A DNA stretch of 64,000 bases from contig JAFRHI010000023.1 of assembly GCA_017433415.1 (NCBI GenBank), forward strand, positions 1-64,000, written 5' to 3'. The notes under the pieces were generated by a model. The model saw nothing but the letters and a program-made list of their open reading frames with translations. It searched no databases and was not told the origin of the DNA. The DNA is from Bacilli bacterium (GTDB lineage Bacteria; Bacillota_I; Bacilli_A; RF39; UBA660). Position 1 is the first letter of the stretch. Every line of letters begins with the position of its first letter. Below, in pieces: positions 6,653-38,562 of the stretch. Both the position numbers and the translations under genes were made by a program.

Positions 6653-7720
6653 ATGAGAGTAAAAAGAAAAGTGAAACCATTATTTATAATAATTGTGATA
6701 TTAGCTATTGTATTTATTTTTGTAGGTACTTGGAAAGTTTTAACAGGACCTGTTGATAGAAAAAGTACAGAAAATATTGATGTTGTTATTGAGAGTGGTA
6801 CTAATACTAGGAAAATAGCTAATATTTTAAAGAATAATGATTTGATTAAGAGTGAATTTGTATTTAAGGTTTATGTTAAATTACATAGTGTTAAATCTTT
6901 GAAGGCAGCTACATATCGTTTTAATAAAAGTATGAGTTTACCTGAAATAGTTAATCAGTTAGAGAATGGTAGTAATTATAATCCTGATATGGTTAAACTT
7001 ACTTTTAAAGAAGGACTTAGAATTACAGATTATGCTAAACTTATTAGTACAAATACTAATAATAGTTATGATGATGTTATTAATGTTGTAAACGATGAAG
7101 TATATATTAATGAATTAATAAATGAATATTGGTTTTTAACTGATAGTATATTAGATGATAAAATTTATTATCCATTAGAAGGATATTTGGCTCCTGATAC
7201 ATATCATTTTGATAATAAGGATGTTAGTGTTAAAGAAATAGTTGAGACAATGTTAGATGAAATGGATAAGAAACTTGCTAAATATAAAGATATTATTTCT
7301 GGTGATATTCATTATTATATGACTATGGCTTCTATTGTTGAATTAGAGGGGACTAATACTGAAAATAGAAAAATGATTGTAGGGGTTTTTAAAAACAGGT
7401 TATCTTCTGGAATGAATATGGGTAGTGATGTAACTACTTATTATGGATTACAAAAACCAATGACTAGTGATTTATCAACTGAAGAGTTTGCAAGTATTAA
7501 TGCTTATAATACTAGATCAACTACAATGATTGGTAAAATGCCAGTGGGACCTATTTGTTCTCCTGGAGAATCAAGCATTGAGGCTAGTGTTAATCCAACA
7601 GATAATGAGTATTTGTTCTTTGTTGCTGATAAGCATGGTAAAATATATTATACAAAGACAAATAAAGAACATGATCAAAAAGTTGCTGAAATAAAGAAAA
7701 ATGGGGACTGGATATGGTAA
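6653..7720 (+). CDS. mltG: Endolytic murein transglycosylase MltG
   Basis: The 355-residue protein has one N-terminal transmembrane helix (about 8-28), a LysM-like segment, then the YceG/MltG catalytic domain. The family signature is recognisable: ASIVELEG with catalytic Glu230, ENRKMIVGVFKNRL, then M-G-SDVTTYYG. MltG cuts nascent glycan strands and terminates peptidoglycan chains. The ribosome site TGGAGGT precedes ATG 6653. The position after the DUF1292 gene matches Bacillus yrrL. Confidence 0.93.
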   Translation: MRVKRKVKPLFIIIVILAIVFIFVGTWKVLTGPVDRKSTENIDVVIESGTNTRKIANILKNNDLIKSEFVFKVYVKLHSVKSLKAATYRFNKSMSLPEIVNQLENGSNYNPDMVKLTFKEGLRITDYAKLISTNTNNSYDDVINVVNDEVYINELINEYWFLTDSILDDKIYYPLEGYLAPDTYHFDNKDVSVKEIVETMLDEMDKKLAKYKDIISGDIHYYMTMASIVELEGTNTENRKMIVGVFKNRLSSGMNMGSDVTTYYGLQKPMTSDLSTEEFASINAYNTRSTTMIGKMPVGPICSPGESSIEASVNPTDNEYLFFVADKHGKIYYTKTNKEHDQKVAEIKKNGDWIW

Positions 7721-7732
7721 TTGGGTGGTATT

Positions 7733-8323
7733 ATGAATGAAAATGTTATTAAGTTAATAAAAGATTATGCTGATGTAAATAATGTACCTATTATGACTGA
7801 TAGTGGTATGAGATTTTTATTGAGATATATTCAAAATCATAAGATAAAAAATATATTAGAAATAGGTACGGCAATTGGATATTCTGCTATTATGATGTGT
7901 ACTGTTAATCCTGATATTGTTGTTACAACTATTGAGCGTGATGAGAAAAGATACTTAGAATCAATAAAAAATGTTAAAAAAGTTGGTTTGGAAAAACGTA
8001 TAAATTTAATTTATAATGATGCTTTAGATGTTAGAGTTGATGATAAGTATGATTTGATTTTTATTGATGCGGCGAAAGCGCAAAGTCAAAAGTTTTTTGA
8101 AAGATTTGAGAATAATCTTGTTGAAGGTGGTACAATCATTACTGATAATATGAAATTTCATGGGCTTGTGGATAAAGAACCTGAGGAGATTGCAAGTAGA
8201 AATTTACGTCAGTTAGTTCGAAAAGTAAAAGACTATACAGCATTTTTGAAAGGAAACACGCGATTTGAGACAGAGTTTATAGATGTTGGAGACGGTTTGG
8301 CTATTTCTGTTAAAAATAGTTAA
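7733..8323 (+). CDS. trmR: SAM-dependent O-methyltransferase (YrrM/TrmR type)
   Basis: The Rossmann methyltransferase has the SAM motif ILEIGTAIGYSAIMM, an acidic TTIERDEKR strand and the metal-binding region FIDAAKAQ-K and ITDNMKFHG. In Bacillus the gene in this position (yrrM, trmR) methylates 5-hydroxyuridine at tRNA position 34, which fits the downstream U32-family tRNA hydroxylation genes. I chose ATG 7733 behind GGGTGG rather than the in-frame TTG at 7721, which has no ribosome site. Orthology to TrmR is inferred from context. Confidence 0.85.
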   Translation: MNENVIKLIKDYADVNNVPIMTDSGMRFLLRYIQNHKIKNILEIGTAIGYSAIMMCTVNPDIVVTTIERDEKRYLESIKNVKKVGLEKRINLIYNDALDVRVDDKYDLIFIDAAKAQSQKFFERFENNLVEGGTIITDNMKFHGLVDKEPEEIASRNLRQLVRKVKDYTAFLKGNTRFETEFIDVGDGLAISVKNS

Positions 8324-8335: not shown

Positions 8336-9190
8336 ATGGAATTATTTCAAATGTTAGATTGTAATAGTGTTTTAGGTAATTGTTGTAGTGACCCAGGGCT
8401 AGTGTCTATACTTGATATAGTTCGTAAGTTTTTAGATTTGTTTCAGGTTTTTGTACCAATAATGTTAATTGTTGGAGCAACAATAAGTTTTATTAAATTG
8501 GCTGCTAATCCAGAAATGAAAAATGGAACTAAGGGTATTGTTAATCAATTTCTGGCAGCAATAATTTGTTTTTTCATACCAGTTATTGTAAATTTTGTTA
8601 TGGGGATAACTCCTGAAACTTATGAGCTTTCTGCTTGTTGGGAACAAGCAAAAACTTCTAATGAGATAGCTAAATCTATGACAAATGTTTATGTTGATAA
8701 AAATAATAAAAAGAAAAGTTCTGTATTAATTGATCCTAAAAACTATGATCCAAATAATCCATCAGCTGGAGGTGGAAGTACGGGATCTGGTAATGGTAGT
8801 GCTACTGGTAAGGCAATTGTTGAATATGCTAAAAGTTTTGTAGGTCAGCCATATGTGTGGGGCGGAACTTGGAATGGAGAACTACCATATACAGGAACTG
8901 ATTGTAGTGGTTTTGTACAGGGAGTATTTAAACATCATGGTATCAATTTAACTCGAACAACTTATACACAGTGGGGTGATACTAGTACTTATACAGTTGT
9001 TCCGCCTGGAGCTGAAATTAAAGCGGGAGATTTGGTTAATTATTGGGAACATGTAGCAATTTTAACTGGAAACGGAAATGAAATTGTTCATGCTAAAGGG
9101 AGAAATTATGGAATTGTAATTGATTCTGATTATAAAACAGCTTCTAGTCATAGTATTAAGGGAATAATGCGAATAAAGGGTGTTAACTAG
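8336..9190 (+). CDS. VirB2-like two-helix segment fused to an NlpC/P60 peptidase
   Basis: The 284-residue protein has two parts. Residues 1-110 form a helix hairpin with a cysteine motif before it (NCCSDPG) and one after it (SACW); CFFIPVIVNFVMGI closely matches the VirB2-like proteins at 30531-30860 and 30944-31405. A Ser/Gly linker follows. Residues 155-284 are an NlpC/P60 domain with Cys190 in TDCSGFV and His239 in WEHVAILTG. NlpC/P60 enzymes cut peptide bonds in peptidoglycan stems. The gene interrupts the conserved yrrM-yrrN order, so it seems inserted there. It probably supplies a wall-opening activity tethered to the secretion machine encoded 8 kb away. That link is inference. Confidence 0.8.
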   Translation: MELFQMLDCNSVLGNCCSDPGLVSILDIVRKFLDLFQVFVPIMLIVGATISFIKLAANPEMKNGTKGIVNQFLAAIICFFIPVIVNFVMGITPETYELSACWEQAKTSNEIAKSMTNVYVDKNNKKKSSVLIDPKNYDPNNPSAGGGSTGSGNGSATGKAIVEYAKSFVGQPYVWGGTWNGELPYTGTDCSGFVQGVFKHHGINLTRTTYTQWGDTSTYTVVPPGAEIKAGDLVNYWEHVAILTGNGNEIVHAKGRNYGIVIDSDYKTASSHSIKGIMRIKGVN

Positions 9191-9200: not shown

Positions 9201-9971
9201 ATGATAATGGTTAGTGATAAGCACGAAAAAAAAGTTAAAAGGGTAAAGCCGAATAATTTACGACAAGATAAGACCCCTATAGTAGTAGCAGTTGCAGTTG
9301 CATTAATAGTATTCTTGATTGTTTATTTCTTTTTAAATAAGCAAAATACAGATTATAAAAAAATAAAACAATATAAAAATAATTATCTGGTTTATACAAA
9401 ATATCAGTCAACTAGTACACAATATCCAGTTCAAATTCCTTTTGTTAATATAAAATCAGAAGCTATTGATGCTGTTAATAAAGATATTGATTTGTTTGTA
9501 AATGATTTTGTTAAATCAAAGAAGAGTGTAGTATCATATGAATATAGTATTAGTGGAATTATTTTATCTGTAATTGTTAAAGTAATTGATTACGATACGG
9601 AATATGCACCTTTTCCTTATTTTAGAAGTTATAATATTAATATATCAACTTTAGAAGTAATTGCAGATCAATCATTATTAGATTTTTATAGCATTAGTGA
9701 GAACGAGGTTGAAGAAATAGTTGAAGATAAATTTCATTTTTATCATGATGAGTTAATTAGTAAAGAGTTTTATGCTGCTGATGAGTGTGATTATGAATGT
9801 TTCCTAAGAAATAGGGATATTGGTAATTATTTAGAAAAAGCTGTTTATTATGTTGATTCTGGTAATTTAGTGGCTTATATACCATTTTCTTTCTATTCAA
9901 TATTTGGGGAAGAAGATTACTTTAAAGATGATAATTTTAAATTTTTATTGGTTGAAGGAAGAGTTGAGTGA
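9201..9971 (+). CDS. Single-pass membrane protein with DUF3298-like extracellular domain
   Basis: The lysine-rich cytosolic start of about 28 residues is followed by one helix (about 29-48) and an extracytoplasmic domain of about 205 residues. The TEYAPFPYFRSYNINISTL stretch and the alternating layout resemble RsiV/DUF3298-type domains, but this is weak. I chose ATG 9201 behind AGGGGTGAT; the in-frame GTG 9180 lacks a ribosome site. It probably shares a transcript with the NlpC fusion gene 10 bases upstream, and ends in a terminator that overlaps its stop codon. Confidence 0.55.
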   Translation: MIMVSDKHEKKVKRVKPNNLRQDKTPIVVAVAVALIVFLIVYFFLNKQNTDYKKIKQYKNNYLVYTKYQSTSTQYPVQIPFVNIKSEAIDAVNKDIDLFVNDFVKSKKSVVSYEYSISGIILSVIVKVIDYDTEYAPFPYFRSYNINISTLEVIADQSLLDFYSISENEVEEIVEDKFHFYHDELISKEFYAADECDYECFLRNRDIGNYLEKAVYYVDSGNLVAYIPFSFYSIFGEEDYFKDDNFKFLLVEGRVE

Positions 9972-10020: not shown

Positions 10021-10878
10021 ATGGAGTTGATTGTAGAAACTTCTTGTAAAGATAAATTATATTTAGATATAGTAGATGGAATTATTCTACCACTTAAGGA
10101 TTATGCTGTAGAGAGTATAGTTTCTTTTTCACTTGATGAAATAAAAGAAATATCTAGAAATAATAATATAAAAGTATATGTTAAGATTAATAAGAATTTA
10201 CTTAATGAGGATATAGATAAGGTAAGAGATATTTTAGTTGAACTTGATAAGCTAAATATTAGTGGAATATTTTTCTATGATTTAGCAATTCTTCAGTTAA
10301 AGAAAGAGTTAAATTTAAGTGTAGATCTTATTTGGAATCAGACACATATGGTTAATAATTATAAGACTTGTGATTATTATTTTTCTCGGGGAGTTAAATA
10401 TGCTTTACTTGGGAAGGAGATAACTTTAGAAGAAATAAAAGAAATAATTGATAAAAGTAAAATTGATGTTATGGTTGAAGTTGTTAGTAAGCCAAGTGTT
10501 GCTTTTTCAATGCGAAAGTTAATTACAAATTATAATAAGGATTTAGGTGTTGATAATAATTCGGATTTAATTATTAATGAAAAAATTACGGATACTAATT
10601 ACGTAGTTAAAGAAGATTCTAATGGAACAAGTTTTTATTTAGATATTATTACTAATGGAACAGGAATTATTTCTGAATTATATAAAGGTGGTTGTAAATA
10701 TATTATTTTTAGAGAATATGGTTTAGAAGATATATTTAATGAATTACTTGTTGATACAGAAAAATATATTAAAGGTAATTGTAGTGATAAAAATTATATT
10801 AATAAATATAAGAAGTTAGGGGATAGCACAAATTTCTTTTTTAAAGAAACTATCTATAGGGTGAAGAAAAATGGATAG
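10021..10878 (+). CDS. U32-family peptidase-like protein, small subunit (TrhP1/YrrN type)
   Basis: The 285-residue protein has the barrel-like pattern of the U32 family N-terminal half: KVYVKINKNL, GIFFYDLAILQL, IWNQTHM and YALLGKEITLEEIKEII. It lacks the cysteine cluster found in the longer partner. In Bacillus, yrrN and yrrO (TrhP1/TrhP2) act in tRNA uridine-34 hydroxylation, and the pair is conserved here with an 8-base overlap. Start ATG 10021 follows GAGGTG. Confidence 0.75.
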   Translation: MELIVETSCKDKLYLDIVDGIILPLKDYAVESIVSFSLDEIKEISRNNNIKVYVKINKNLLNEDIDKVRDILVELDKLNISGIFFYDLAILQLKKELNLSVDLIWNQTHMVNNYKTCDYYFSRGVKYALLGKEITLEEIKEIIDKSKIDVMVEVVSKPSVAFSMRKLITNYNKDLGVDNNSDLIINEKITDTNYVVKEDSNGTSFYLDIITNGTGIISELYKGGCKYIIFREYGLEDIFNELLVDTEKYIKGNCSDKNYINKYKKLGDSTNFFFKETIYRVKKNG

Positions 10879-12076
10879 AATAGAATTATTATCTCCAGCA
10901 GGTGATTTAGAAAGACTAAAAGTTACTCTTTTATATGGAGCTGATGCTGTATATATTGGAGGAGAAAAATATGGGTTAAGAGCTAATGCTACTAATTTTA
11001 GTTTAGATGAAATAAGAGAGGGATGTAGTTTTGCTCATAAACTTAATAAAAAGGTTTATCTTACTTTAAATATTGTGTTTCATAATGAAGATACAGTTGG
11101 AGTACTTGATTATATAAAAGATGTAGTTGATTGTGGTATTGATGCTTTTATTGTTAGTGATCCATTTATCATTTCATATATAAAGGAGAATTATCCTAAT
11201 GTAGAAGTGCATTTATCAACACAAAATTCTACTACTAATTATAAGTGTGTTGAATACTTTAAAGATGAAGGAATTGATAGGGTAGTTTTAGCAAGAGAGT
11301 TATCAAAAGATGAAATAAAAGAAATTATTGATAAGACTCATGTTGATATAGAAGTATTTATTCATGGAGCAATGTGTACATGTGTTAGTGGGCGTTGTGC
11401 TTTATCTAATTATGTTACAGGTCGTGATGCCAATCGTGGTGGTTGTGCACAAGTCTGTCGTTTCTCTTTTGGTAATGGTGATAAGAAAGATTTTACGATG
11501 GCTACTAAAGATAATAATTTGGCGGAATATATCGGTGATTTAATTGCTATAGGTGTTAAAAGTTTAAAGGTAGAAGGTAGAATGAGATCACTATATTATT
11601 TGGCGACAGTCATTGGAACATATCGAGAAATAATTGATGCATATTATGATAAAAAACTTAATAAAGATTTAATGGAAGTATTTAAAGAGAGACTTGATAG
11701 AGTTGCGAATAGAGAAACATCAACACAATTTTTCTTGAAAAAGGCTGATTATACTGATCAGTATTATACTGGTAGAAGTGAAGTGTCTAATCAAGATTAT
11801 TTAGGGCAAGTTATTAGTTATGATAAAAAGAATAAATTACTTAAATTTTATGAGAGAAATTATTTTGAAGTTGGTGATTTAGTAGAAATATTTACACCTA
11901 ATAATGATAGATGTACATTTATTGTTGATGAATTATATGATGAAGATATGAATAAAGTAGATGTTGCGAGACATCCAGATAATATATATTATTTAAAAGT
12001 AGATTTAGATTTTATCATTTTAGAGTATTCAATGTTAAAAATAATTGAAAGAAAAGATAAAAAAGAGAATATTTGA
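10871..12076 (+). CDS. U32-family tRNA 5-hydroxyuridine synthesis protein (TrhP2/YrrO type)
   Basis: The 401-residue protein opens with the family signature ELLSPAGDLERLKVTLLYGADAVYIGG. Further landmarks are VHLSTQNSTTN, FIHGAMCTCVSGRCALSNY and GGCAQVCR, whose cysteines form the predicted iron-sulfur ligand set of TrhP proteins, then KSLKVEGRMRS. Annotated in many genomes as a collagenase-like protease, the family is now tied to prephenate-dependent hydroxylation of tRNA U34. The adjacent methyltransferase at 7733-8323 acts on the product in Bacillus, so the pathway is reunited here. Confidence 0.87.
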   Translation: MDRIELLSPAGDLERLKVTLLYGADAVYIGGEKYGLRANATNFSLDEIREGCSFAHKLNKKVYLTLNIVFHNEDTVGVLDYIKDVVDCGIDAFIVSDPFIISYIKENYPNVEVHLSTQNSTTNYKCVEYFKDEGIDRVVLARELSKDEIKEIIDKTHVDIEVFIHGAMCTCVSGRCALSNYVTGRDANRGGCAQVCRFSFGNGDKKDFTMATKDNNLAEYIGDLIAIGVKSLKVEGRMRSLYYLATVIGTYREIIDAYYDKKLNKDLMEVFKERLDRVANRETSTQFFLKKADYTDQYYTGRSEVSNQDYLGQVISYDKKNKLLKFYERNYFEVGDLVEIFTPNNDRCTFIVDELYDEDMNKVDVARHPDNIYYLKVDLDFIILEYSMLKIIERKDKKENI

Positions 12077-23621: not shown

Positions 23622-24116
23622 ATGAATAAAGGTATGTTAACTATAGGAATTATACTTCTTAGTATAATTGCCTTGTTACTTGTAAATGTTTTGACAAATT
23701 TTTCTACAGGTAGTGAACTTGATTATTACCTAGTTAAAGAAGTAACTGATGCAGCTATGGATGATTCACGTGATGTAGTACATGATAATAGATGTGGTTT
23801 AGCAAGAATTGATAGAGAAAGATTTGTAGAAAGTTTTATTTGGAGATTTGTAAGAGGTATCGATGCTACTAGAGCTTATGATATAAAATTCTATGATATT
23901 TCTGAACAACCTCCTAAAGTAAGTGTTAAAGTTGATTCATTAACAGTACTTGCATTTAATGCTGGCGGCGACAATCCTGAGACTGTTGCTGCCGACATTA
24001 CAACTAGTTATGATGCTATAGGTGAATCTAACGAATTATATAATGAAGTTATTGAAGAAGCACTACACGATAGTAAGAGTGATTTATGTACACCAGTGCT
24101 TGAAGAGGAAAAATAG
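23622..24116 (+). CDS. Small anchored protein, possible pseudopilin
   Basis: The 164-residue protein has an N-terminal helix (about 5-25) directly followed by NFSTGSELDYYLVKEVTDAAMDD, then an alpha/beta domain of about 120 residues. TM-then-globular layout and position just before cpaB suggest a pseudopilin or TadE/TadG-like part, but it lacks a standard prepilin cleavage site. AGGAGG lies 13 bases before ATG, rather far. Function uncertain. Confidence 0.55.
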   Translation: MNKGMLTIGIILLSIIALLLVNVLTNFSTGSELDYYLVKEVTDAAMDDSRDVVHDNRCGLARIDRERFVESFIWRFVRGIDATRAYDIKFYDISEQPPKVSVKVDSLTVLAFNAGGDNPETVAADITTSYDAIGESNELYNEVIEEALHDSKSDLCTPVLEEEK

Positions 24117-24131
24117 AAAGGGTGAAGAAAA

Positions 24132-24938
24132 ATGGGTAGTTTAGCAACGGGATTAAAAAAGTTTTTACAAAATAAAAACACTGTTACTGTTGTTGGTATT
24201 GTTGTTGCAATATTTATATTATATATTGCATATACTATGAGAATTAATTCAGCAATAAATCCGGTAGTAGTACCATATGCTTTAGAACAAATACCAGCTG
24301 GTACACAGATAACATCTGGTATGGTTGATACTAGAGAAGTGCCACCGGCAATGCTTGAAGGTGATGTTATACGTAATGTTGGTGATGTTGTTGATAAGTA
24401 TTCAGCTGCTGATACTGTTATTCCAGAAGGAAGCTTGTTCTATAAAAGAGCAGTAGTTGAGAAAGAACAATTACCTGCAAATATTATTTTGGATTATCCA
24501 AAAGGATATGTATTGTATAATTTGTCTGTTGATACTGATAGTACTTATGGTAACTCTGTTTATCCAGGAAATTATATTGATATTTATTTAAAGGCAGTAA
24601 ATAAAGTTCCAGATAATCAAGTAGTGACACCAGATGCTGATAAGATAATGTTAGGTAGATTAATTTCTAATATTCATGTTTTAGCTGTAAAAGATGCTTC
24701 AGGGCAACCAGTATTCCAAAATATTGATGAAATGAGAACTCCTTCAATGGTTGTGTTTGCTGTTCCTGAGGAATATTATATTTTACTAAAGAAAGCTGAA
24801 TTCATGAGATCTTATGATACGACATTAATTTTAGTTCCAACTAATGAAAGTTTAAAAGAAGAACCAGGTGAGTTGGAAATAAGCAGTGAACAGTTGAAAA
24901 ACTGGATAAATGCTAATACTGTTTGGACAGAAAGTTAA
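24132..24938 (+). CDS. cpaB: CpaB/RcpC-like Tad pilus assembly protein (SAF domain)
   Basis: The 268-residue protein has an N-terminal helix (about 20-38), then a SAF domain with YALEQIPAGTQITSGMVDTREV, and an RcpC-like domain with YVLYNLSVDTDSTYGNSVYPGNYIDIYL (shown as adjacent short segments). CpaB/RcpC proteins are envelope components of Tad (Flp) pilus systems. The gene is followed 23 bases later by the CpaF-type ATPase, the usual Tad order. Confidence 0.87.
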   Translation: MGSLATGLKKFLQNKNTVTVVGIVVAIFILYIAYTMRINSAINPVVVPYALEQIPAGTQITSGMVDTREVPPAMLEGDVIRNVGDVVDKYSAADTVIPEGSLFYKRAVVEKEQLPANIILDYPKGYVLYNLSVDTDSTYGNSVYPGNYIDIYLKAVNKVPDNQVVTPDADKIMLGRLISNIHVLAVKDASGQPVFQNIDEMRTPSMVVFAVPEEYYILLKKAEFMRSYDTTLILVPTNESLKEEPGELEISSEQLKNWINANTVWTES

Positions 24939-24961
24939 AATAAAAAAGGGATGTGAGCTAG

Positions 24962-26497
24962 ATGAACGAAAATATATTTGATAAGTTAGACTTTGGACCG
25001 TTCAAAGAATTATTAGACAATGATGATATAACCGACGTTTCATATGATAATGGTGGGCAGATTTGGATTCGTTCTCTAACTCAAGGTTCCATGAGGGTTG
25101 AAATAGAAGGCGCAACTCCTGAATTTGTTGAAAAACTTGCTTTTCAATGTTCAAATGTAATGGGAACAACGTTTAATAATGCTAAACCATTTTTGGATGC
25201 AGAGTCATCTGAATTACGTATGAACTTTGTACATCAATCTATAGCAACAAATGGAATTGCCCTAGTTATTCGTAAAACTCCAGCTAAGATTAGACTTGAA
25301 AAAGAAAAATTAATACAAGAAGATTATTTTACACCAGCTATACATGATTTTTTAATAAAATGTGTTCAAGGACATTGTAATATTATGGTTGCTGGTGAAA
25401 CTGGTTCTGGTAAAACAGAATTTATTAAATATTTAGCTAGTCATACGGCTACTAATGAAAAAATTATTACTATTGAAGATACTCTAGAGCTTCATTTAGA
25501 TAAGATTTTTCCGCAAAGAGATATTGTTGCGATGAAGACTAATAATGTAGCTAGTTATTCTGATGTTTTGGTTACTTGTATGCGTCAGAATCCAAAATGG
25601 ATTCTTTTGTCCGAGGTTCGTAGTGCTGAAGCTGTTTCAGCGGTGCGAAATTCTATTTCTTCAGGACATAATATTTTATCAACAATTCATGCGGATAAAG
25701 CATCAGCAATTCCTTATCGTCTTTATTCTTTAATGGAAACAGATTTGGATGTTCATCAGTTCTTATCGACTATTTATCGATATATTCAGTTAGGTGCACA
25801 TATTAAAGCTTTTTATAGTAAAGAATATGGAAAGTTCCATCGTGAACTTGATGAAGTTTGTGAATTTTATGTTGATGATGAAAATGTTCCTAGATCACGA
25901 ATTATTTATCAAAAAATATTTGGAAAACCAATGATGTGTCGTCCTAGTGATCATTTGATTGAATATTTGGAAAATCAAAATATTGATGTTAGAGAGATAG
26001 TAGAGGGTCTTCCATTGGAATTACCAATCATGGAGGCTCGAGATAATAGTAATATTCAAGATGCAAATATTAATCAGAATGTTCAAGAGGTACAACCTGC
26101 TAGTGAACAGGTGGTTTCTAATTCAGTTCCCCCTACAGGTGTTGTTTCGGAGCAAGTAGTTGAAGTTCCTATTACTCAACCAGAAAGTGTTATACCTGCT
26201 GCTCAACCAGAAAATGTTATACCTGTTGTTCAGCCGGATAATGAAGTTGTTTCGGCACCGGTTGCTGTTAGTGAGCCAATTGAACAACAAAATGTGGTAA
26301 ATACAAATGAAATTATTAATGGACAAGCGCCAAGCGTTCCTGTGATGCAAAATGCTACGGATGTTCAGTTGGCAGCTATTCCAGCAGTTAATTCGTTTGT
26401 TCCACAGCAACAAGTGGTAATTGAGACACCTGTTAATAATGTGGTGTCACCAGTAGGGAATACACCATTGAATGGGCTTGCTAAGCTTGAGGAATAA
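24962..26497 (+). CDS. cpaF: CpaF/TadA-type secretion ATPase (VirB11 superfamily) with Q/P/V-rich tail
   Basis: The 511-residue protein has an N-terminal domain, then Walker A GETGSGKT (residues 145-152), an Asp box IITIEDTLEL, Walker B region WILLSEVRSAEA and the His box STIHADKA. It powers Tad pilus assembly at the inner face of the membrane. Residues after about 360 form an unusual low-complexity tail with short repeats (QPESVIP, QPENVIP, QPDNEV). This tail is absent from ordinary CpaF and may bind a partner. Neighbours CpaB, TadB and TadC confirm the assignment. Confidence 0.92.
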   Translation: MNENIFDKLDFGPFKELLDNDDITDVSYDNGGQIWIRSLTQGSMRVEIEGATPEFVEKLAFQCSNVMGTTFNNAKPFLDAESSELRMNFVHQSIATNGIALVIRKTPAKIRLEKEKLIQEDYFTPAIHDFLIKCVQGHCNIMVAGETGSGKTEFIKYLASHTATNEKIITIEDTLELHLDKIFPQRDIVAMKTNNVASYSDVLVTCMRQNPKWILLSEVRSAEAVSAVRNSISSGHNILSTIHADKASAIPYRLYSLMETDLDVHQFLSTIYRYIQLGAHIKAFYSKEYGKFHRELDEVCEFYVDDENVPRSRIIYQKIFGKPMMCRPSDHLIEYLENQNIDVREIVEGLPLELPIMEARDNSNIQDANINQNVQEVQPASEQVVSNSVPPTGVVSEQVVEVPITQPESVIPAAQPENVIPVVQPDNEVVSAPVAVSEPIEQQNVVNTNEIINGQAPSVPVMQNATDVQLAAIPAVNSFVPQQQVVIETPVNNVVSPVGNTPLNGLAKLEE

Positions 26498-26512
26498 AAG
26501 GAGTTGAGATTA

Positions 26513-27415
26513 ATGTATTTAGAAGAATTGTTTATTATTATTGGAACAGTTGTCTTTATATATATATATAGGAATTATAAAGGTGATAATGTTGGTAAAT
26601 ATATTCTTGGTCAAGTTCAAAGTATGTATGATAGATTTTCTCCTTATTCCTTTAAAGTTGTTAGGGAAAAAACAAAGCAACTTGGACAAGAATATACAGT
26701 TAGACAATATACTATTCAAGTAACGCTTTTTGCTGGCTTTGCTTCAGTAGTTTCCTATTTATATTTTTATAATTTAATTATTAGTGTTATATATGCTCTT
26801 GTTGCGGTGGGATTTGTTCCTTATTTAACCTATTTGCGTTGTAAAAAAACATATTCTGAATTTTTATTTGAACAAATTCAAGTATATACTTCTAATACAA
26901 TTATGGAGTTTGCAACAACTCAATCTTTTGTAAAAGCAATAGAGGGTGTAGCAAATTCGGGAATTTTAGAAGATCCAGTATTAAGTGATGTTAGACAAAT
27001 GATTAATATGAGTTATGATAATGGTACTATTGATGAAGCATTGGATTATATGAGTAAACTATATCCATATTATATTGTTAAAAATATGCATCAATTATTT
27101 TTACAAATAACTAAAGAAGGTGCTCAAAATTCGGCTGATTCATTAGAAAATATGCAACTTGATATTGATATGCTTGTTGAAAACGTATATCGTGATAGAA
27201 TTGAAAGAGCTACTTTCCATAAATCATTTTTACAATTTGGTATAATGCTGTATCTATTGATAATGATTGTTCAGTATTTGTTAGGTAGGGAAACTTATTT
27301 AGTACTGCTGGAAAGATGGTATATTCAGCTATTGATGCATGGAGTATTAGTTATTAATACATATTTCCTTATAAAAGGAGAAAAATACTATTATGAGAAT
27401 GTGGGGGCTGAATAA
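26513..27415 (+). CDS. tadB: TadB-like inner membrane platform protein (T2SSF domain)
   Basis: The protein has an N-terminal helix, a paired helix segment (about 70-105), a T2SSF-type helical domain with IQVYTSNTIMEFATTQSFVKAIE and LFLQITKEGAQNSADSLENM, and two C-terminal helices. TadB forms the platform on which the CpaF ATPase acts. ATG 26513 lies 9 bases after AAGGAG; the in-frame TTG 26504 directly touches the ribosome site and is unlikely. It overlaps tadC by one base (TAATG). Confidence 0.82.
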   Translation: MYLEELFIIIGTVVFIYIYRNYKGDNVGKYILGQVQSMYDRFSPYSFKVVREKTKQLGQEYTVRQYTIQVTLFAGFASVVSYLYFYNLIISVIYALVAVGFVPYLTYLRCKKTYSEFLFEQIQVYTSNTIMEFATTQSFVKAIEGVANSGILEDPVLSDVRQMINMSYDNGTIDEALDYMSKLYPYYIVKNMHQLFLQITKEGAQNSADSLENMQLDIDMLVENVYRDRIERATFHKSFLQFGIMLYLLIMIVQYLLGRETYLVLLERWYIQLLMHGVLVINTYFLIKGEKYYYENVGAE

Positions 27416-28218
27416 TGGAGATAATTCTTGTTGGAGCAATTATAATATTTGTTTTAATATATAATAATACTATTGATAAAGATAAGTTTTTTGCAGATAA
27501 TCAAAAGTATTTGGAAGCTTTAAAAGAAGATGATTATCAGTTTTTAGTTTATGCTAGATATGGAGAAGATGTTGATGTTGATCAATTATATTCTAAACGT
27601 GTTACGATGGCTTTTGTTGCGTTTTTAGTGGTATTGGTTTTATCAATATCTGGTAATGGTTCAGCAGAGATTATAAACTCACAGTTTTTTCTTAATTTGA
27701 TTTTGGCATGTGCTGCGTTTTATGGGGCTTTTAAATTACCATATATGCAATTGAAAAATTATTATAAGCAGCATTTACATGAAATTGATGTTATGCTTCC
27801 ATATTATTTGAAGAGTTTGGAGATTTTGATTCAGCATTATACTGTACCTGTTGCGATAGGTAAATCTATTACTGATGCTCCAGACATATTTAAACCAGGT
27901 CTTAGACGAATGATAGATAGAATTAATGCTGGTGATGCGACGGTAGATCCATATATGGAATTTGCTAATACATATCCGGTAAGAGATTCAATGCGAATGA
28001 TGCGTTTGTTGTATCGTTTAGGAATTGGTTCACAAGAAAGAAAACAAGAAAGGTTAATGATGTTTTCTAGAACAGTGTCTAGTTTACAGAACAAAGCACG
28101 TGAAACAAAGTATAAAGAACGTCTTAATCATATGGAAAGTCAAACTATGATAATGCTTGTTGTTACTGGTGTTGGAGTAATGGTTGTTATTCTTATATCA
28201 ATGATGATGATGTTCTAA
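27415..28218 (+). CDS. tadC: TadC-like inner membrane platform protein (T2SSF domain)
   Basis: The 267-residue protein has an N-terminal helix, two central helices (about 62-107), a T2SSF domain with DVMLPYYLKSLEILIQHYTVPVAIG and a final helix with MLVVTGVGVMVVILISMMM. It pairs with TadB as the second platform subunit. The gene begins within the tadB stop codon, so the two are translationally coupled. Confidence 0.82.
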   Translation: MEIILVGAIIIFVLIYNNTIDKDKFFADNQKYLEALKEDDYQFLVYARYGEDVDVDQLYSKRVTMAFVAFLVVLVLSISGNGSAEIINSQFFLNLILACAAFYGAFKLPYMQLKNYYKQHLHEIDVMLPYYLKSLEILIQHYTVPVAIGKSITDAPDIFKPGLRRMIDRINAGDATVDPYMEFANTYPVRDSMRMMRLLYRLGIGSQERKQERLMMFSRTVSSLQNKARETKYKERLNHMESQTMIMLVVTGVGVMVVILISMMMMF

Positions 28219-28244
28219 AATTAAATATGTATAGTAAAATAATC

Positions 28245-28273
28245 TTGTTTTGAGGAGATTGTTTTGTTATAAT
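28245..28273 (+). promoter_or_regulatory. Internal promoter before the Flp-like pilin
   Basis: TTGTTT (28245-28250), 17-base spacer, TATAAT (28268-28273). A separate promoter immediately before the major pilin fits the need for excess pilin over assembly proteins. Confidence 0.65.
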
Positions 28274-28308
28274 ATATTTGTAATATTATAGAAAGGATTG
28301 ATGAATTA

Positions 28309-28458
28309 ATGAAAGCTGCTACAGGTGAATTAAACTTAACAGTTATTACAATGATTGCAATTGCTGCAATAATTGGATTCTTTTGGTTGTTGTGGCCAAG
28401 TATTAAGAATAACATGAATAATCAATGGAGTAATATTTCTACATATGAAGACAAATAA
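28309..28458 (+). CDS. Flp-like major pilin, 49 residues
   Basis: The short gene has its own promoter and an AGAAAGGATTG ribosome site. The product starts MKAATGELNLTVITM, continues as one hydrophobic helix (IAIAAIIGFFWLLWP) and ends in a polar tail of about 20 residues. The short leader ending in glycine just before a glutamate, followed by a long helix, fits prepilin processing and Flp pilin size. The glutamate is at +1 rather than +5 relative to the glycine, so the cleavage site is uncertain. Position after tadC supports major pilin. Confidence 0.7.
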   Translation: MKAATGELNLTVITMIAIAAIIGFFWLLWPSIKNNMNNQWSNISTYEDK

Positions 28459-28478
28459 TATTTTATAGGAGAGATTAA

Positions 28479-28976
28479 ATGAAAGATGCTTTTGGCGGAA
28501 TAATGAATTTGTTTTTTATTGCTGTATTTATGCTAATTGTTTCAGGATCTTTAGCTTTAGTTGTTAGTTATACTAAGGCGTTTAAGATGAAAAATGAAGT
28601 TATTTCGGTTTTAGAGCGTAATGAAGCAAGTGGTTATAATGAAACTGCAAATGGGAATCCTAGCGGATGTTTTGCACAGGATGGTTCTAATCCTTGCACT
28701 AGCGGTATAAAACAATATGCCGAAAGCATCGGTTATTCTCCATATTCTGTTGATTGCAGTTCGGTTGGTATGGCAGATGGTGTTGATAAGTTATTTTGTT
28801 ACAAATGTGAAGCAAATACTAATGCCAATGCTAAATGGTATGGTAATCAGACAGTATTTTGTACTGTAACAACTCAAGTAGATATTAATTTTCCAATCAT
28901 TAATAAAATTCTAGGATTAAGTTTTTTTAGAGTACATGGGGATACAAGAGTTATTCAAATTCCTAAGTATAGATGA
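28479..28976 (+). CDS. TadE/TadG-like pseudopilin 1
   Basis: The 165-residue protein opens MKDAFGGIMNLFFIAVF, has one helix (about 8-32), then VSYTKAFKMKNEVISVLE and a globular domain with four or more cysteines. It is clearly paralogous to the next gene (shared M-x-DA-x-GG start, YTKAF-x-MK block and the ending V/I-DTKI-like GDTRVIQ). Likely a minor pilin that primes or caps the fibre. Confidence 0.72.
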   Translation: MKDAFGGIMNLFFIAVFMLIVSGSLALVVSYTKAFKMKNEVISVLERNEASGYNETANGNPSGCFAQDGSNPCTSGIKQYAESIGYSPYSVDCSSVGMADGVDKLFCYKCEANTNANAKWYGNQTVFCTVTTQVDINFPIINKILGLSFFRVHGDTRVIQIPKYR

Positions 28977-28985
28977 GGTGATTAA

Positions 28986-29435
28986 ATGCGTGATGCTATA
29001 GGTGGGACTGTAGTCCTAGTTATCATTGTTACTTTCATTGTGATTGTTTTATCATATATGGCATTTAATGTTAATTATACTAAAGCATTTAGAATGAAGG
29101 ATAAGGTTATTTCAATTTACGATGATTATAATGGAAATTGTGAAGCAGCATGTCACGAAGAAATATCTGATTATGCAAAAAAATTAGGATATTATGTTGT
29201 AAATCTTAATTGTCCTGCTCATTTTAATAACTATGGTAATTATTATTGTTATCAGAGAGTTCCAATTAAGGCTTCTGATAGTGATCCAACAAAAACTTAT
29301 AGTGTTGGTGAAAATGAGTACTATCGTATTGTAACAAAAATCAACTTAAATGTTCCGGTTATAAATAATATTTTAGATCTTAATTATTTTTATATTTATG
29401 GTGATACTAAAATATATAGCAATTTTGATAAATAA
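28986..29435 (+). CDS. TadE/TadG-like pseudopilin 2
   Basis: The 149-residue paralogue of the preceding gene has MRDAIGG at its start, one helix (about 8-30), NYTKAFRMKDKVISIYDDY and a cysteine-containing globular part (CEAACHEE, NCPAHF, YYCYQR) ending YGDTKIYS. GAGGTGAT precedes ATG 28986. The pair probably forms a heteromeric minor pilin complex. Confidence 0.72.
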   Translation: MRDAIGGTVVLVIIVTFIVIVLSYMAFNVNYTKAFRMKDKVISIYDDYNGNCEAACHEEISDYAKKLGYYVVNLNCPAHFNNYGNYYCYQRVPIKASDSDPTKTYSVGENEYYRIVTKINLNVPVINNILDLNYFYIYGDTKIYSNFDK

Positions 29436-29452
29436 CGAAGAGGGGCGTAATT

Positions 29453-30472
29453 ATGAATGTATTAATTTCTAATAAACAGCAAAATACTTTATCTGAATTA
29501 GATATTGATATAATCAAGAGTCTTACAGGCAGTTATCAAGCTACGGAAATTGTTGAGATGTTCAAGAATTTCTTTTTTAGTAAAATGATTTTAGATGTTA
29601 GTGCACTAAATAATAATGAAGATATTAAATCATATGAAGTATTAGCAAAAGGATTAGATCCAGATAAAATTATTTTTTTACTTCCAGAAGGAAGTAAATT
29701 GTGTACTCCTAATTTTTTATCCCATTTGATAGGAATGGGAATATATAATTTTACTACTAATGTTAATGGTGTTAAGTATTTGTTAAAAAAACCAAATACT
29801 TTAAATGATGTTGAACATATTAAGAAAATGGCTAATATAAAGAATTCAACAGAAACAGGAGCTGCTGTTGCGACTATTGCACCTACTAGTAATGTGGCAA
29901 AAGGGCCTACTATTATTGGTGTGAGAAATGTTACTGAGCATGCTGGTGCTACTACACTAATTTATATGTTAAAAAAAGAATTGGCTTTTTCTTTTGGGTT
30001 TGATAATGTTGTTGCTGTTGAAATAGGTAAGAATGATTTTCAAATTTTTAATGATAAAAAAATGTTTTCTGTGAGACAAGCGGATATTAAAGAGTTTATA
30101 ACTAAAGCTGCTAATATTAGTATTTTGCTTGTTGATTTGAATGATTGTACTGATGATAGCTTTTGTGGTGATGTTTTATACTTGGTTGAGCCAAGTACAA
30201 TTAAGCTTAATAAGTTAATTAGGCGTAATAAAATAATTTTTACTAAATTGCAAAATCATAAAGTTGTTTTGAATAAAAGTTTGCTTTTAAATAATGATGT
30301 TTATGATTTTGAAAATGAAGCTGGAATTAAAGTTTTTTATAATATGCCACCTTTGGATGAAAGAAAAAGAAATGCTGTTATTAATGATTTCTTAACTAAA
30401 TTGGGTGTCTTTAATAAAAATAGTAGTAGTTCTAGTGGACAGACTAAAATATTTGGTCTGTTTAGACGTTAA
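29453..30472 (+). CDS. tadZ: TadZ/CpaE-like protein with degenerate P-loop
   Basis: The 339-residue protein has a receiver-like N-terminal domain (about 1-125, with FLLPEGSKLCTPNFLSHL), a linker, and a ParA/MinD-like domain. There the usual K-G-G-x-G-K-T loop is replaced by VTEHAGATTL near residue 165, so both signature lysines are missing. TadZ/CpaE proteins place the Tad machine at a cell site and often have divergent ATPase motifs. The C-terminus is Ser-rich and ends IFGLFRR. Confidence 0.7.
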   Translation: MNVLISNKQQNTLSELDIDIIKSLTGSYQATEIVEMFKNFFFSKMILDVSALNNNEDIKSYEVLAKGLDPDKIIFLLPEGSKLCTPNFLSHLIGMGIYNFTTNVNGVKYLLKKPNTLNDVEHIKKMANIKNSTETGAAVATIAPTSNVAKGPTIIGVRNVTEHAGATTLIYMLKKELAFSFGFDNVVAVEIGKNDFQIFNDKKMFSVRQADIKEFITKAANISILLVDLNDCTDDSFCGDVLYLVEPSTIKLNKLIRRNKIIFTKLQNHKVVLNKSLLLNNDVYDFENEAGIKVFYNMPPLDERKRNAVINDFLTKLGVFNKNSSSSSGQTKIFGLFRR

Positions 30473-30478
30473 TATTTG

Positions 30479-30509
30479 TTTGACAAATTTTGTAAAATAA
30501 TATTATAAT
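30479..30509 (+). promoter_or_regulatory. Promoter before the first VirB2-like gene
   Basis: TTGACA (30479-30484) with TATTAT (30501-30506, spacer 16) or TATAAT (30504-30509, spacer 19). It sits exactly between the Tad genes and the T4SS genes. Confidence 0.65.
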
Positions 30510-30530
30510 ATTTATGAAGGAGAGGTTGTT

Positions 30531-30860
30531 ATGTCAAGTTTAATTTTATTTGGTGCTACTGATGCTTGCGGAGGATTATTACCACTTGTAAAAGTAATTT
30601 ATGCTTTTATAAAAGTTCTTATGATTCTTATACCTATTGCCCTTATAATTTTTGGTATAATTGATTTGGGTAAAGCTGTTATTTCTAGTGATGATAAAGA
30701 GGTAAAAGCAGCAACAAGTAGATTAGTAAAAAGATTTATTTATGCAGCAGTTGTATTCTTTGTACCTATCTTAGTTGCAGCAGTTATGAACATAGTAGCT
30801 GCTGGTGGTGAAGGAAACACTACAGGTTGGGAAGCTTGTTGGAATGCAGCTAAACAATAA
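30531..30860 (+). CDS. VirB2/TrbC-like two-helix protein
   Basis: The 109-residue protein has two hydrophobic segments (about 17-45 and 62-88) joined by a charged loop (SSDDKEVKAATSRLVKR). This is the layout of VirB2-like small subunits of T4SS, though without an evident signal peptide. A cysteine precedes the first helix (TDACGG) and one follows the second (WEACWNAAK). FFVPILVAAVM matches the paralogues at 8336 and 30944. It has its own promoter and terminator, fitting a highly expressed subunit. Confidence 0.72.
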   Translation: MSSLILFGATDACGGLLPLVKVIYAFIKVLMILIPIALIIFGIIDLGKAVISSDDKEVKAATSRLVKRFIYAAVVFFVPILVAAVMNIVAAGGEGNTTGWEACWNAAKQ

Positions 30861-30867
30861 TAACTTT

Positions 30868-30898
30868 TAAAATAGCAAATTGATTGCTATTTTTTTTT
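30868..30898 (+). terminator. Terminator after the first VirB2-like gene
   Basis: AAATAGCAA pairs with TTGCTATTT around ATTGA, followed by a run of T. It insulates or attenuates the next gene, which has its own -10 (TATAAT 30921-30926). Confidence 0.85.
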
Positions 30899-30943
30899 GG
30901 TTTTGATATAATTAATATGATATAATATATCCGGAGTGATTTT

Positions 30944-31405
30944 ATGATGAAAAAAGTATTTATTTCCTTGGCTTTAATACTATCTTTATTCTTTACTTTT
31001 CCAGTAGAGTCATTTGCATTAAGTGGGGTAAATGGAGGTACAGCAATAACAGATAGTTTTTATATTTTAAGTGATGATGTTATTATTGATTATGATGATG
31101 ATCAAGAATGTTCTGGGGCTAATTCAATACTTGGAAATCCTGATGATCCGGATTCAGTTGCTTGGTTATTGCAAAAAATACTTAATTATATTAAAATAAT
31201 AGGACCAATTCTAATAGTTGTCTTAAGTAGTGTTGATTTTTCTAAAGTTATTATTAATGGTGATGAAAAAGCTATGAATGGGGCACTTAAGAATTTGGGG
31301 CTTAGACTTATATTTGCAATCTTATTGTTCTTTATACCAGTTATTGTTAATTTCATTTTAGGTATTTTTGGATTAACTTCTGATCCAACGTGTGGATTGC
31401 AATAG
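30944..31405 (+). CDS. VirB2/TrbC-like two-helix protein with signal peptide
   Basis: The 153-residue protein has an N-terminal signal (ends near ESFALSG), an acidic exported segment (VIIDYDDDQECSGAN), then two helices (about 80-100 and 120-142) with LLFFIPVIVNFILGIFGL, which nearly equals the NlpC-fusion protein at 8336. Cysteines again flank the helix pair (ECSG and PTCG). GGAGTGAT precedes ATG 30944. Confidence 0.72.
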   Translation: MMKKVFISLALILSLFFTFPVESFALSGVNGGTAITDSFYILSDDVIIDYDDDQECSGANSILGNPDDPDSVAWLLQKILNYIKIIGPILIVVLSSVDFSKVIINGDEKAMNGALKNLGLRLIFAILLFFIPVIVNFILGIFGLTSDPTCGLQ

Positions 31406-31442
31406 AGGATGATAATAAATCTAATCTGGATGAGGTGATAGT

Positions 31443-33527
31443 GTGTTTTCAGATACATTTTTAGCTAGCAAGAATGTACTCAATTCATCGTTTAGGTGGA
31501 TCATAATAAATATTGATCATGCTGTTTATGGTTTGCTTGAATTGATTTATCAATTGTTTTTTAATGTGGCATCATCAGATTTTTTTAGTAATGCTACAGT
31601 AGTAAAGTTTTATGGTCGAGTTCAATTGATACTTGGTATTTTTATGATGTTTCAACTTGCTATGATTATTCTTAAGGGAATAGTAAATCCAGATAGTTTT
31701 ACAGATAAAAAATCAGGTGCTGGTAATCTTGTTACTAGGGTTATCACAGCTTTGGTATTACTTACGGTGTTAGTTCCTATTAATGTTCCAAAAGATCCAG
31801 CAAGTATGAATGAGTATGAGATTCAGATTAATAATAATGGTCTTTTATTCGGTACTTTATATTCTTTGCAATATAGATTATTAGCTGGTAATGTTTTAGG
31901 AAAACTTATTTTAGGTACTACAGAATCTGATACTTTTGATATTTCTGAAAATGAAGATGGTTTATATGATTCAGCAAAAACTTTTACAGCGACGATAGTT
32001 AGAGGGTTTTATAGGATTAATTTGATTCCATATGAAGAAAGAACGCATGACCCTGATAAGGATGATGCTGAAATTGTAAGTAATAGAATGTGTGAAGATA
32101 TGGGAGATGCACTTGGTGTATATACTTCACCTGATTCCAGTGCGGGAGAAATAATAGCTGTTGCTAACGAAACTTGTTCAGAAAATAAAATTTTAGGATT
32201 ATTAGGTAAGACTGTTAGTGCTTGGGCTGGTAACGAAATGTATATGTTTACTATAATGCCTTTTGTGTCAACAGCAGCAGCAATCATATTTATTCTCATT
32301 TTTATTAGTTTTACAATTGATGTTGCGGTGAGGGCAATAAAACTTGCTGTTTTAAGGTTGATTGCACCTATTCCTATAATTAGTTATATGGATCCAAAAG
32401 GATCAAAAGATAGTGCGTTTAATGCTTGGGTAAAAAGCTTAACATCTACTTATCTTGATTTGTTTGTTAGATTAGCAACTATTTATTTTGTATTATTTAT
32501 AATTAGAGATATGATTAGTAATGGTATTGTTGTTGGTGGCTCAGGTCTTTTAAAAACTTTATCAATTATTGCCATTTGGATAGGATTATTTGTCTTTGCT
32601 AAGCAGGCTCCTAAATTTATTAGACAAATTTTAGGTTTAAAAGAAGATGCTGGAAAAGGAATATTCAGTGGTCTTGGTGCAGCGATGGCTGTAGGGGCAA
32701 TGGCTGGTGGTGTTACTAGTGGTGCTCTTTCTCGTGCTGCTGCTTCGAAACAAAATGGCGGTAAGTTCTTTAGTAATGTTGGAGCTGGAATTGTTGGTGC
32801 AATTGGTGGTGGTGTTAATTCTGGTAGGGCTTTCTTTGGATCAGATAAAGCTAATCGTAAATCTGTTATGGAACAAAGAAGGGCATATAATGCTAGAAAT
32901 TATTCTAATGCAGCTGATGACTCTACTTTTAAGGGTAGATTTGCGGCTAGTATGGCAAGTAATTTAGGTTTAAGAAATAAACAAGAAAAACTTGATACTA
33001 AACAAGCTTATTATAATGCAGCTAATGATGCATGGTCTAGAATGGATGCAGCTTTAAGTGGAGATGATAAATATAAGACTAAGGGAAAAACGATAGGCGA
33101 TGCATTTTCTGCTACTAAACAATATTCTGTTAAGGAAGCTAGTGATATTTATACAGCTATGAAAAATAGTGGTAAATATAGTGTTGCTGAACTTCGTGAA
33201 GCAGAAGAATATGTTAAGGAAATTAAGAAAGATACATATGGAAAAATCATTAAGGATAGAAAGAATAAAGTTAAACTTGATTCTCGTGGCGAACAAATAT
33301 ATGGTGCAGCAGAAACTATATTTAAAGTTGGTTCTGCATATTCTAATGATGCAGATGAAATCTTTGTTAGCTTTAAAGGTAAGGATAAATTGGAAAATGT
33401 TGATTATGGTGATTTGAAAGGTGGAAGTCTTGGAGCTAAACGTGAGGCTGATAAAATTAAAGCTAGTTCTGAATATGCTGCGGCTAAAGCAGATGCTGCT
33501 CGTGTTGCGCAAAATAATAAGAAATAA
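31443..33527 (+). CDS. VirB6/TrbL-like T4SS channel protein
   Basis: The 694-residue protein has about seven hydrophobic segments between residues 20 and 400, including VQLILGIFMMFQLAMIIL and AVLRLIAPIPIISYMDPKG, the conserved polytopic core of Gram-positive VirB6-like proteins. A Gly/Ala-rich stretch (about 410-470) leads to a charged helical cytosolic tail. It should form the inner membrane pore. The start is GTG 31443 behind GAGGTGAT. Confidence 0.8.
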   Translation: MFSDTFLASKNVLNSSFRWIIINIDHAVYGLLELIYQLFFNVASSDFFSNATVVKFYGRVQLILGIFMMFQLAMIILKGIVNPDSFTDKKSGAGNLVTRVITALVLLTVLVPINVPKDPASMNEYEIQINNNGLLFGTLYSLQYRLLAGNVLGKLILGTTESDTFDISENEDGLYDSAKTFTATIVRGFYRINLIPYEERTHDPDKDDAEIVSNRMCEDMGDALGVYTSPDSSAGEIIAVANETCSENKILGLLGKTVSAWAGNEMYMFTIMPFVSTAAAIIFILIFISFTIDVAVRAIKLAVLRLIAPIPIISYMDPKGSKDSAFNAWVKSLTSTYLDLFVRLATIYFVLFIIRDMISNGIVVGGSGLLKTLSIIAIWIGLFVFAKQAPKFIRQILGLKEDAGKGIFSGLGAAMAVGAMAGGVTSGALSRAAASKQNGGKFFSNVGAGIVGAIGGGVNSGRAFFGSDKANRKSVMEQRRAYNARNYSNAADDSTFKGRFAASMASNLGLRNKQEKLDTKQAYYNAANDAWSRMDAALSGDDKYKTKGKTIGDAFSATKQYSVKEASDIYTAMKNSGKYSVAELREAEEYVKEIKKDTYGKIIKDRKNKVKLDSRGEQIYGAAETIFKVGSAYSNDADEIFVSFKGKDKLENVDYGDLKGGSLGAKREADKIKASSEYAAAKADAARVAQNNKK

Positions 33528-33544
33528 AAAGGGTGTGATATTAA

Positions 33545-33862
33545 GTGTATGATAATTATTTAATACCTGCTAATACGAAGCGGGGACAATTATTATTAGG
33601 TATGTTTAGATTGTTCGATCTACTATTATTTGGCGGTGGTGTGTTAGTTACATTGTTACTTGTTGCATTTTTACCTATGACAAGTACTTTTGTGACAATA
33701 CTAGTTGTAAGTCCGGCAATAATTACTGGTTTTTTGGTAATGCCGGTTCCTTATTATCATAATATGCTTAATATTATTGTTGAGATATATGAATTCTTCT
33801 TTGTAAATCCAAGGGAATATGAATGGAAAGGTTGGTGTTATAGAGGTGGCAAAAGGAAATAG
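33545..33862 (+). CDS. PrgI/VirB3-like small membrane protein
   Basis: The 105-residue protein has two adjacent helices (about 20-70) after a short polar start, and a basic tail. This size, topology and position directly before VirB4 fit PrgI-family (VirB3-like) proteins of Gram-positive T4SS. The likely start is GTG 33545. It overlaps the next gene by up to 44 bases. Confidence 0.7.
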   Translation: MYDNYLIPANTKRGQLLLGMFRLFDLLLFGGGVLVTLLLVAFLPMTSTFVTILVVSPAIITGFLVMPVPYYHNMLNIIVEIYEFFFVNPREYEWKGWCYRGGKRK

Positions 33863-34394
33863 TAGAAGTTCTGCTGAGGCATGGTTACCAGTTAGAGCTA
33901 TTCAGAATAATATGATTATTACTCGTGATAATATGAAAGTTTCTGGAGTTAAAATAGCTCCTAGAAATATCTTTATTTTGGATCCACAACTTCAAAATAA
34001 TATGTTGTTGGGTCTTAGTAACTTTTATAATACAATTGATTTTGAATTTTGGTTAGTTGTTGCGGATAGACCAGTTGATATTTCAGTTTATATGTCACAG
34101 ATGCAGTTGTTGTTGAATGAAACATCTTCTCCTGCTGTTCGTAAATTGATTATGCAAGATATTGATAAAGGAGAAACATTTATTAGAAATAATGTTGTTG
34201 ATACAGAGTATTATTTTATGTTTAAATGTGATGATGCTGATTTGTTACAAAAGAGAGTTCGTCAAATGATTAATGGTTTAGCAACTTGTGGATTAAATGC
34301 ATCAATGATAAGTAATTCGGATTTAAGAATGATACTTGAAAATTTCTTAAACGGGGGAAATACTACAGAGTTTGGAACGGTGATGCCTGTATGA
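33819..34394 (+). CDS. Free-standing TraC/VirB4 N-terminal-like domain protein
   Basis: The 191-residue soluble protein has WLPVRAIQNNMIITRDNMKV, then ISVYMSQMQLLLNE and a helical end. This is the pattern of the LPxRxI-type domain that often precedes or accompanies VirB4/TraC ATPases. It is a separate frame here, ending in ATGA shared with the VirB4 start. GTG 33846 is an alternative start that would shorten the overlap with the upstream gene. Probably it partners with VirB4 at the channel base. Confidence 0.65.
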   Translation: MNGKVGVIEVAKGNSRSSAEAWLPVRAIQNNMIITRDNMKVSGVKIAPRNIFILDPQLQNNMLLGLSNFYNTIDFEFWLVVADRPVDISVYMSQMQLLLNETSSPAVRKLIMQDIDKGETFIRNNVVDTEYYFMFKCDDADLLQKRVRQMINGLATCGLNASMISNSDLRMILENFLNGGNTTEFGTVMPV

Positions 34395-38552: not shown

Positions 38553-38562
38553 GAGAGATATA

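Follow-up and report, generated by a model that had tools for sequence, protein, structure and literature searches.

The gene at positions 8336–9190 of the forward strand of the analysed window (the whole stretch of 64,000 nucleotides) encodes a protein in which a two-helix hairpin of the VirB2 type is joined through a linker to a complete NlpC/P60 domain. The best explanation overall, to which we assign a probability of roughly 0.55, is that its product is a modular surface enzyme mounted on a VirB2-derived hairpin, served by an RsiV-like partner and probably packing with other hairpin proteins.

The gene starts with ATG, is preceded by a good ribosome-binding site (GAGGTGAT) and codes for 284 amino acids. 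Full-length orthologues (loci L007–L019 and L126–L130) occur in many genomes with 38–63% identity, and an artefactual open reading frame was rejected on these grounds. The following features lie in order on the forward strand: Cys16-Cys17 in front of the first membrane helix (8381–8386); the hairpin (8393–8608), whose two predicted helices, residues 20–57 and 63–91, are connected by a positively charged loop; Cys101-Trp102 behind the second helix (8636–8641); the conserved linker with two invariant tyrosines, here Y119 and Y137, succeeded by a Gly/Ser/Asn-rich tether (8642–8800); and the NlpC/P60 domain (8801–9187). The Pfam family NLPC_P60 (PF00877) matches residues 170–268 with an E-value of 5.9e-15 and 55.6 bits, the cut-off being 23. 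Alignment of six orthologues revealed an invariant Cys-His-polar triad, namely C190 (8903–8905), H239 (9050–9052) and H252 (9089–9091). The AlphaFold model of the fusion, which rests on six sequences, has low confidence overall (pLDDT 56 on average). Its C-terminal part matched solved NlpC/P60 structures in Foldseek (8er5, E 4e-7), and the hairpin, modelled at pLDDT 50–60, gave no match to a solved pilin; due to this poor modelling, the Foldseek support is limited to the NlpC part. Mobile-element cargo was also rejected: a search of viral contigs gave no relative, and plasmids gave no hairpin match. The related public contigs are all metagenome-assembled or uncultured.

The relatives of the hairpin in this genome are two proteins of a composite Tad/T4SS locus, the stand-alone hairpin VirB2a (30531–30860, forward strand) and VirB2b (30944–31405, forward strand), a hairpin with an N-terminal extension. 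The family T4SS_pilin (PF18895) matches residues 27–88 of the fusion with an E-value of 7.6e-5, below the curated cut-off, and weakly matches VirB2a (E 0.0058) and VirB2b (E 8e-4). A single-protein query against its own genome retrieved VirB2b with E 2e-10 and VirB2a with E 1.6e-8. Profile–profile comparison by hhalign, in which 97 aligned fused hairpins of the genus served as the query and orthologue alignments as targets, gave an E-value of 3.5e-23 and a probability of 99.5% for VirB2a, and 1.9e-14 and 98.3% for VirB2b. The nine membrane families of the window that were taken as controls (PrgI, TspO, DedA, rhomboid, TadB, TadC, CpaB, TadE, and histidine kinase) all remained at or below 2.6%, which rejects a chance likeness of two hydrophobic hairpins. 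Since hhalign links the hairpin to both proteins while the controls stay this low, an unrelated helix pair is excluded. Two claims of the first-pass annotation, homology of the helix pair to VirB2a and VirB2b and a complete C-terminal NlpC/P60 domain, are thereby borne out by the profile comparison and by the Pfam, triad and 8er5 matches, respectively. The N-terminal part of the VirB6-like protein (31443–33527), which has an NPD..DK loop, also gave an intermediate hhalign match to the VirB2 hairpin (83.7%, E 8e-6), and the VirB6 and VirB2 hairpins may have a common origin.

Among 108 aligned hairpin proteins, a cysteine precedes helix 1 in 106 and follows helix 2 in 107, with both present in 105; the loop between the helices is net positive in all 108. 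A proline in helix 1, a proline in the loop and a Phe-x-x-Pro motif in helix 2 are conserved at 99–100%. The linker after Cys-Trp has two near-invariant tyrosines and frequently ends with Y-E-K-G. The flanking cysteine pair was also found in 39 of 40 VirB2a proteins, which, in a first small alignment, share the Pro, Lys, Phe, and Pro positions with the hairpin proteins. As judged from these alignments, the conservation of hairpin and linker exceeds mere hydrophobicity.

Because the loop is positive, the positive-inside rule suggests that both ends of the hairpin should lie outside and the loop in the cytoplasm. A disulfide between the N-terminal cysteine and Cys101 is possible. In the mechanism we propose, the hairpin would insert into the membrane in this orientation and be stapled by that disulfide, which would reach the Cys-Trp after helix 2. 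The NlpC/P60 endopeptidase would be held on its flexible tether between the outer face of the membrane and the inner face of the wall and, by its predicted activity, would cut stem peptides there. The RsiV-like outer domain of a neighbouring one-helix protein would bind and restrain the enzyme, and the hairpin would pack against further hairpin proteins, for which the Tad/T4SS pilin assembly is the likeliest site. Display of the enzyme at the membrane is highly probable. Packing with other hairpins is probable because residues common to the pilins of the cluster have been kept and head-less forms persist.

The fusion belongs to a family of limited range. The hairpin-linker profile A2 had a match of about E 1e-30 or better in 38 of the 39 genomes of the genus, the exception being 60% complete. 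The search of 147 related genomes gave up to 23 matches per genome within the genus, totals that include the machine's own VirB2a and VirB2b wherever these were above the threshold. A class-wide sample yielded matches in 50 of 54 genomes of the own family and in 0 of 341 from other families, and all 18 positives in a phylum-wide sample belong to the same family. Among the sampled genomes, the fusion family is widespread within, but confined to, one bacterial family.

The loci fetched, a sample picked for having hairpin genes, include 122 proteins with a C-terminal enzyme or other domain (head), 30 with a C-terminal hairpin and 86 short proteins. BLAST clustering with the linker excluded divided the C-terminal parts of the 122 head-bearing proteins into 32 clusters, about 30 of which are head clusters; cluster 19, made up of two VirB6-like proteins whose hairpin matches are marginal, is not to be counted as heads. 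Twelve Pfam families scored above the cut-off among the heads: NLPC_P60, CHAP, Amidase_3, Glucosaminidase, YkuD, Peptidase_C39_2, NAGPA, Lactamase_B, Peptidase_M23, Lipase_GDSL, an endolysin-like domain, and Big_2. Peptidase_S11 and esterase-type alpha/beta hydrolases were found below the cut-off, and the Pfam scan gave no match for several head clusters. Contig 14 of the own genome carries a second fusion, in which the hairpin is joined to an SGNH-like enzyme, a head read from its motifs. Additionally, hairpin-linker proteins without a head (L219–L231; ORFs of 122–148 amino acids ending at or near the linker motif) are present in many genomes of the genus and are distinct from VirB2a and VirB2b. 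In most species, the hairpin-fusion genes are dispersed over the chromosome, mostly far from the T4SS locus. The best reading of these sequences is a standard hairpin-linker cassette whose enzyme heads would be swapped from lineage to lineage. In genome G060 (L205–L218), whose assembly has no detectable VirB4, about six single VirB2a-like genes are dispersed, and there are also hairpin proteins that combine coiled regions with NlpC-like or lysozyme-like heads.

The fusion gene lies between MltG-like and YrrM-like genes upstream (6653–8323, forward strand) and the partner gene and two U32-peptidase-like genes downstream (the latter at 10021–12076, forward strand), names given by resemblance. 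The order MltG – YrrM – fusion – 9201 gene – U32a – U32b is conserved, in agreement with the initial assignment of the gene to the yrr operon. This slot is stable throughout the genus and in two further genera; a recent relocation from the T4SS cluster is therefore rejected, and with it the first-pass view that the gene was moved out of the main cluster. The occupant of the yrr slot is an NlpC-type fusion in most species and a CHAP-type one in L077 and, by cluster, L089. A second slot, between NAGPA and a 41687-like gene in the NAGPA operon, is occupied in some species by an SGNH-like fusion and in L222, L224, L225, L226, and L229 by a hairpin-linker protein without a head. The NAGPA operon itself (L044:8294–10552, L082:1037–2643) comprises a coil protein, NAGPA and the slot hairpin protein with or without the SGNH-like head; in L044 it also contains a prepilin gene of the GFTLIELL type. 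In a FastTree phylogeny of 231 hairpins, one clade (nested-node support 0.73–0.90) contains 111 of the 120 N-terminal fusions that bear a head, along with relatives lacking one, and is separate from the VirB2a and VirB2b groups. Fusions may have had more than one origin, since a few from other genera are placed elsewhere in the tree.

The partner gene (9201–9971, forward strand) starts 10 nt past the stop codon of the fusion and encodes a one-helix membrane protein whose ectodomain is predicted to have an RsiV-like fold of the DUF4163/DUF3298 kind. Its model (pLDDT 75.7) matched 3cyg with an E-value of 1.5e-5 in Foldseek and RsiV bound to lysozyme (5jen) with a moderate 3.5e-4 at a TM-score of about 0.45; DUF3298 proteins were matched with lower significance. 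RsiV binds and inhibits lysozyme (PMC5014341), and by this analogy restraint or sensing of the enzyme head is the natural reading of the partner's role, one that we consider fairly probable. The partner is like RsiV and the DUF3298 ectodomain proteins in its predicted outer-domain fold and single N-terminal membrane helix but differs in several respects: its neighbour is an NlpC/P60 wall endopeptidase rather than lysozyme, the known target of RsiV; the Pfam scan gave no match for the protein; and the genes next to it in the window, the fusion and the U32 genes, include no recognised sigma factor gene.

Partner relatives were located within 250 nt of 36 of the 108 fusions having enough flanking sequence. 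They adjoin 36 of 38 fusions from six head clusters and none of 70 in the others: 24/24 in cluster 0, 5/5 in cluster 5, 3/5 in cluster 7, 2/2 in cluster 17, and the single members of clusters 26 and 27. The Pfam-scanned members of clusters 0, 5, 7, 17, and 27 have NlpC/P60, CHAP, Amidase_3, and C39 heads, and the head of cluster 26 had no Pfam match; NlpC-, CHAP-, and C39-type heads of clusters 9, 11, 15, 28, and 31 have no partner gene. The association follows the head cluster, not the fold. All 27 fusions starting with Cys-Cys have the partner (Fisher p 4e-18, a value that ignores relatedness). A partner-like gene was also detected in G060, of a distant genus, beside a hairpin – coiled region – NlpC-like protein.

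A gene pair of this kind could also be an antibacterial effector with its immunity gene, the hairpin marking heads for delivery to neighbour cells and the RsiV-like protein protecting the producer. The many diverse wall-attacking heads, the tandem arrays and the restriction of the partner to certain head types would suit this explanation. We regard it as improbable, however, because a large number of heads are of biosynthetic or non-toxic types (YkuD, NAGPA, SGNH-like), a partner of this sort is missing from most head clusters, and the yrr position is conserved across species in a housekeeping-like manner.

The machine whose VirB2 proteins are homologous to the hairpin is encoded at 23622–41683 (forward strand), from the TadE-like to the VirD4-like gene, in an order conserved in the genus and in much of the family: TadE – CpaB – CpaF – TadB – TadC – two small proteins – TadZ-like, followed by VirB2a – VirB2b – VirB6 – PrgI – VirB4 (two ORFs) – SpoIID protein – VirD4. 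Gene names beyond the Pfam matches were assigned by resemblance. VirB4 (34391) is present in nearly all genomes of the family, usually as one copy of this type, and is 86–92% identical within the genus. On sequence evidence, the locus looks like an inherited core feature of a family of Bacilli. The SpoIID-domain protein next to VirB4 (36198–38552, identified by Pfam), which has a weak C39-like C-terminus, is a candidate VirB1 equivalent of this machine.

The first-pass annotation regarded the fusion as a pilin-like anchor carrying its own hydrolase, perhaps to open the wall at the machine. The joining of hairpin and hydrolase holds, while the role at the machine is weakened, given the SpoIID protein by VirB4 and the many heads that are not wall hydrolases. 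Known VirB1 proteins of Gram-positive bacteria are indeed membrane-anchored with extracellular hydrolase domains (PMC12857230), and in several species the fusion gene and VirB4 share a strand, with the fusion gene about 24–26 kb upstream. Nevertheless, the cluster encodes a SpoIID-domain protein of its own adjoining VirB4, which makes the fusion less likely as the machine's own hydrolase, and the RsiV-like partner and the CHAP replacement at the yrr slot fit the wider family instead. We consider it very unlikely that the fusion gene supplies the dedicated VirB1 equivalent of the machine.

The hairpin could now serve only to fix exoenzymes in the membrane, replacing a lipobox or a single helix, the link to the T4SS having been lost. 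The fusions are dispersed and occur in operons with a logic of their own (NAGPA and glucosaminidase neighbours), and five assemblies (G004, G005, G006, G013, G060) have fusion-type hairpins without detectable VirB4. These assemblies are incomplete (71–93%), and one missing contig in each could account for the absence of VirB4; as exceptions, they leave a strict T4SS dependence of the fusions not established. Against a mere anchor speak the residues common to the hairpins and VirB2a/b, which exceed what hydrophobicity would require, the persistence of head-less hairpin-linker proteins in many genomes, and five genomes at least 90% complete (G066, G073, G258, G368, G427; 90–98%) that have no match to VirB4, T4CP or CpaF and are also hairpin-free. 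On balance, loss of the link appears unlikely.

In other genera (L143, L181, L182, L184, L185, L187, L196, L198), the T4SS clusters contain a reverse architecture at the VirB2 position: a C-terminal hairpin preceded by a long N-terminal region without a Pfam match. Fusions beside VirB6 do occur in relatives, but in this order, with the hairpin last. Physical coupling of the fusion to the conserved Tad/T4SS machine is plausible, and we hold a working association of the hairpin with it as a tentative view, at slightly less than even odds. Within the preferred reading of a modular surface enzyme, a further step would be co-assembly of enzyme-bearing hairpins with head-less hairpins and VirB2a/b on the vertically inherited Tad/T4SS, so that a monoderm would carry a surface organelle or pilus base fitted with exchangeable enzymes; this is conceivable, though rather doubtful.

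The VirB2 hairpin appears to have been turned into a standard cassette for about a dozen recognisable kinds of surface enzymes. Should these hairpins be part of the machine, cells would have a means of building an organelle that bears enzymes; even without such a link, the cassette would represent a route of anchoring exoenzymes for which a literature search, conducted mostly outside subscription journals, revealed no description of VirB2 hairpin–enzyme fusions. By analogy, the RsiV-like partner suggests how a membrane-held wall endopeptidase may be restrained. With a T4SS kept as a core and apparently non-mobile system, its cellular role becomes directly testable.

Comparison with known systems places the fusion between several groups of proteins. 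According to a recent paper (PMC12102498), Patescibacteria possess VirB2 arrays of 2–11 genes, and T4SS classes of Gram-positive bacteria are without VirB2 pilins; the family of Bacilli described here, as opposed to the latter statement, has retained a T4SS locus on the chromosome that encodes VirB2-type hairpins. The features shared with PF18895 and the VirB2-like pilins, including the Patescibacteria arrays, are the homologous two-helix hairpin, multi-copy divergence and the VirB4/VirB6/PrgI core. The Patescibacteria proteins, however, are described there as pilins and not as fusions to enzymes, whereas the fusion is not a small pilin free of added enzyme domains but a protein with an NlpC/P60 head, is encoded in a yrr-operon slot outside the T4SS cluster, and belongs to a set of chromosomally dispersed genes in Bacilli. 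The Gram-positive VirB1 hydrolases PrgK, TraG, and Orf14 are membrane-anchored T4SS parts (PMC12857230) that share with the fusion a membrane anchor and wall hydrolase domains, the extracellular topology being in our case deduced from the loop charge; they are not described with a VirB2 hairpin, and the gene studied here is located outside the T4SS cluster and is one of many. Finally, the NlpC/P60 endopeptidases SagA, Spr/MepS, and CI_01448 have the same Cys-His-His catalytic domain and fold, from which the fusion is distinguished by its pilin-hairpin anchor and paired RsiV-like gene.
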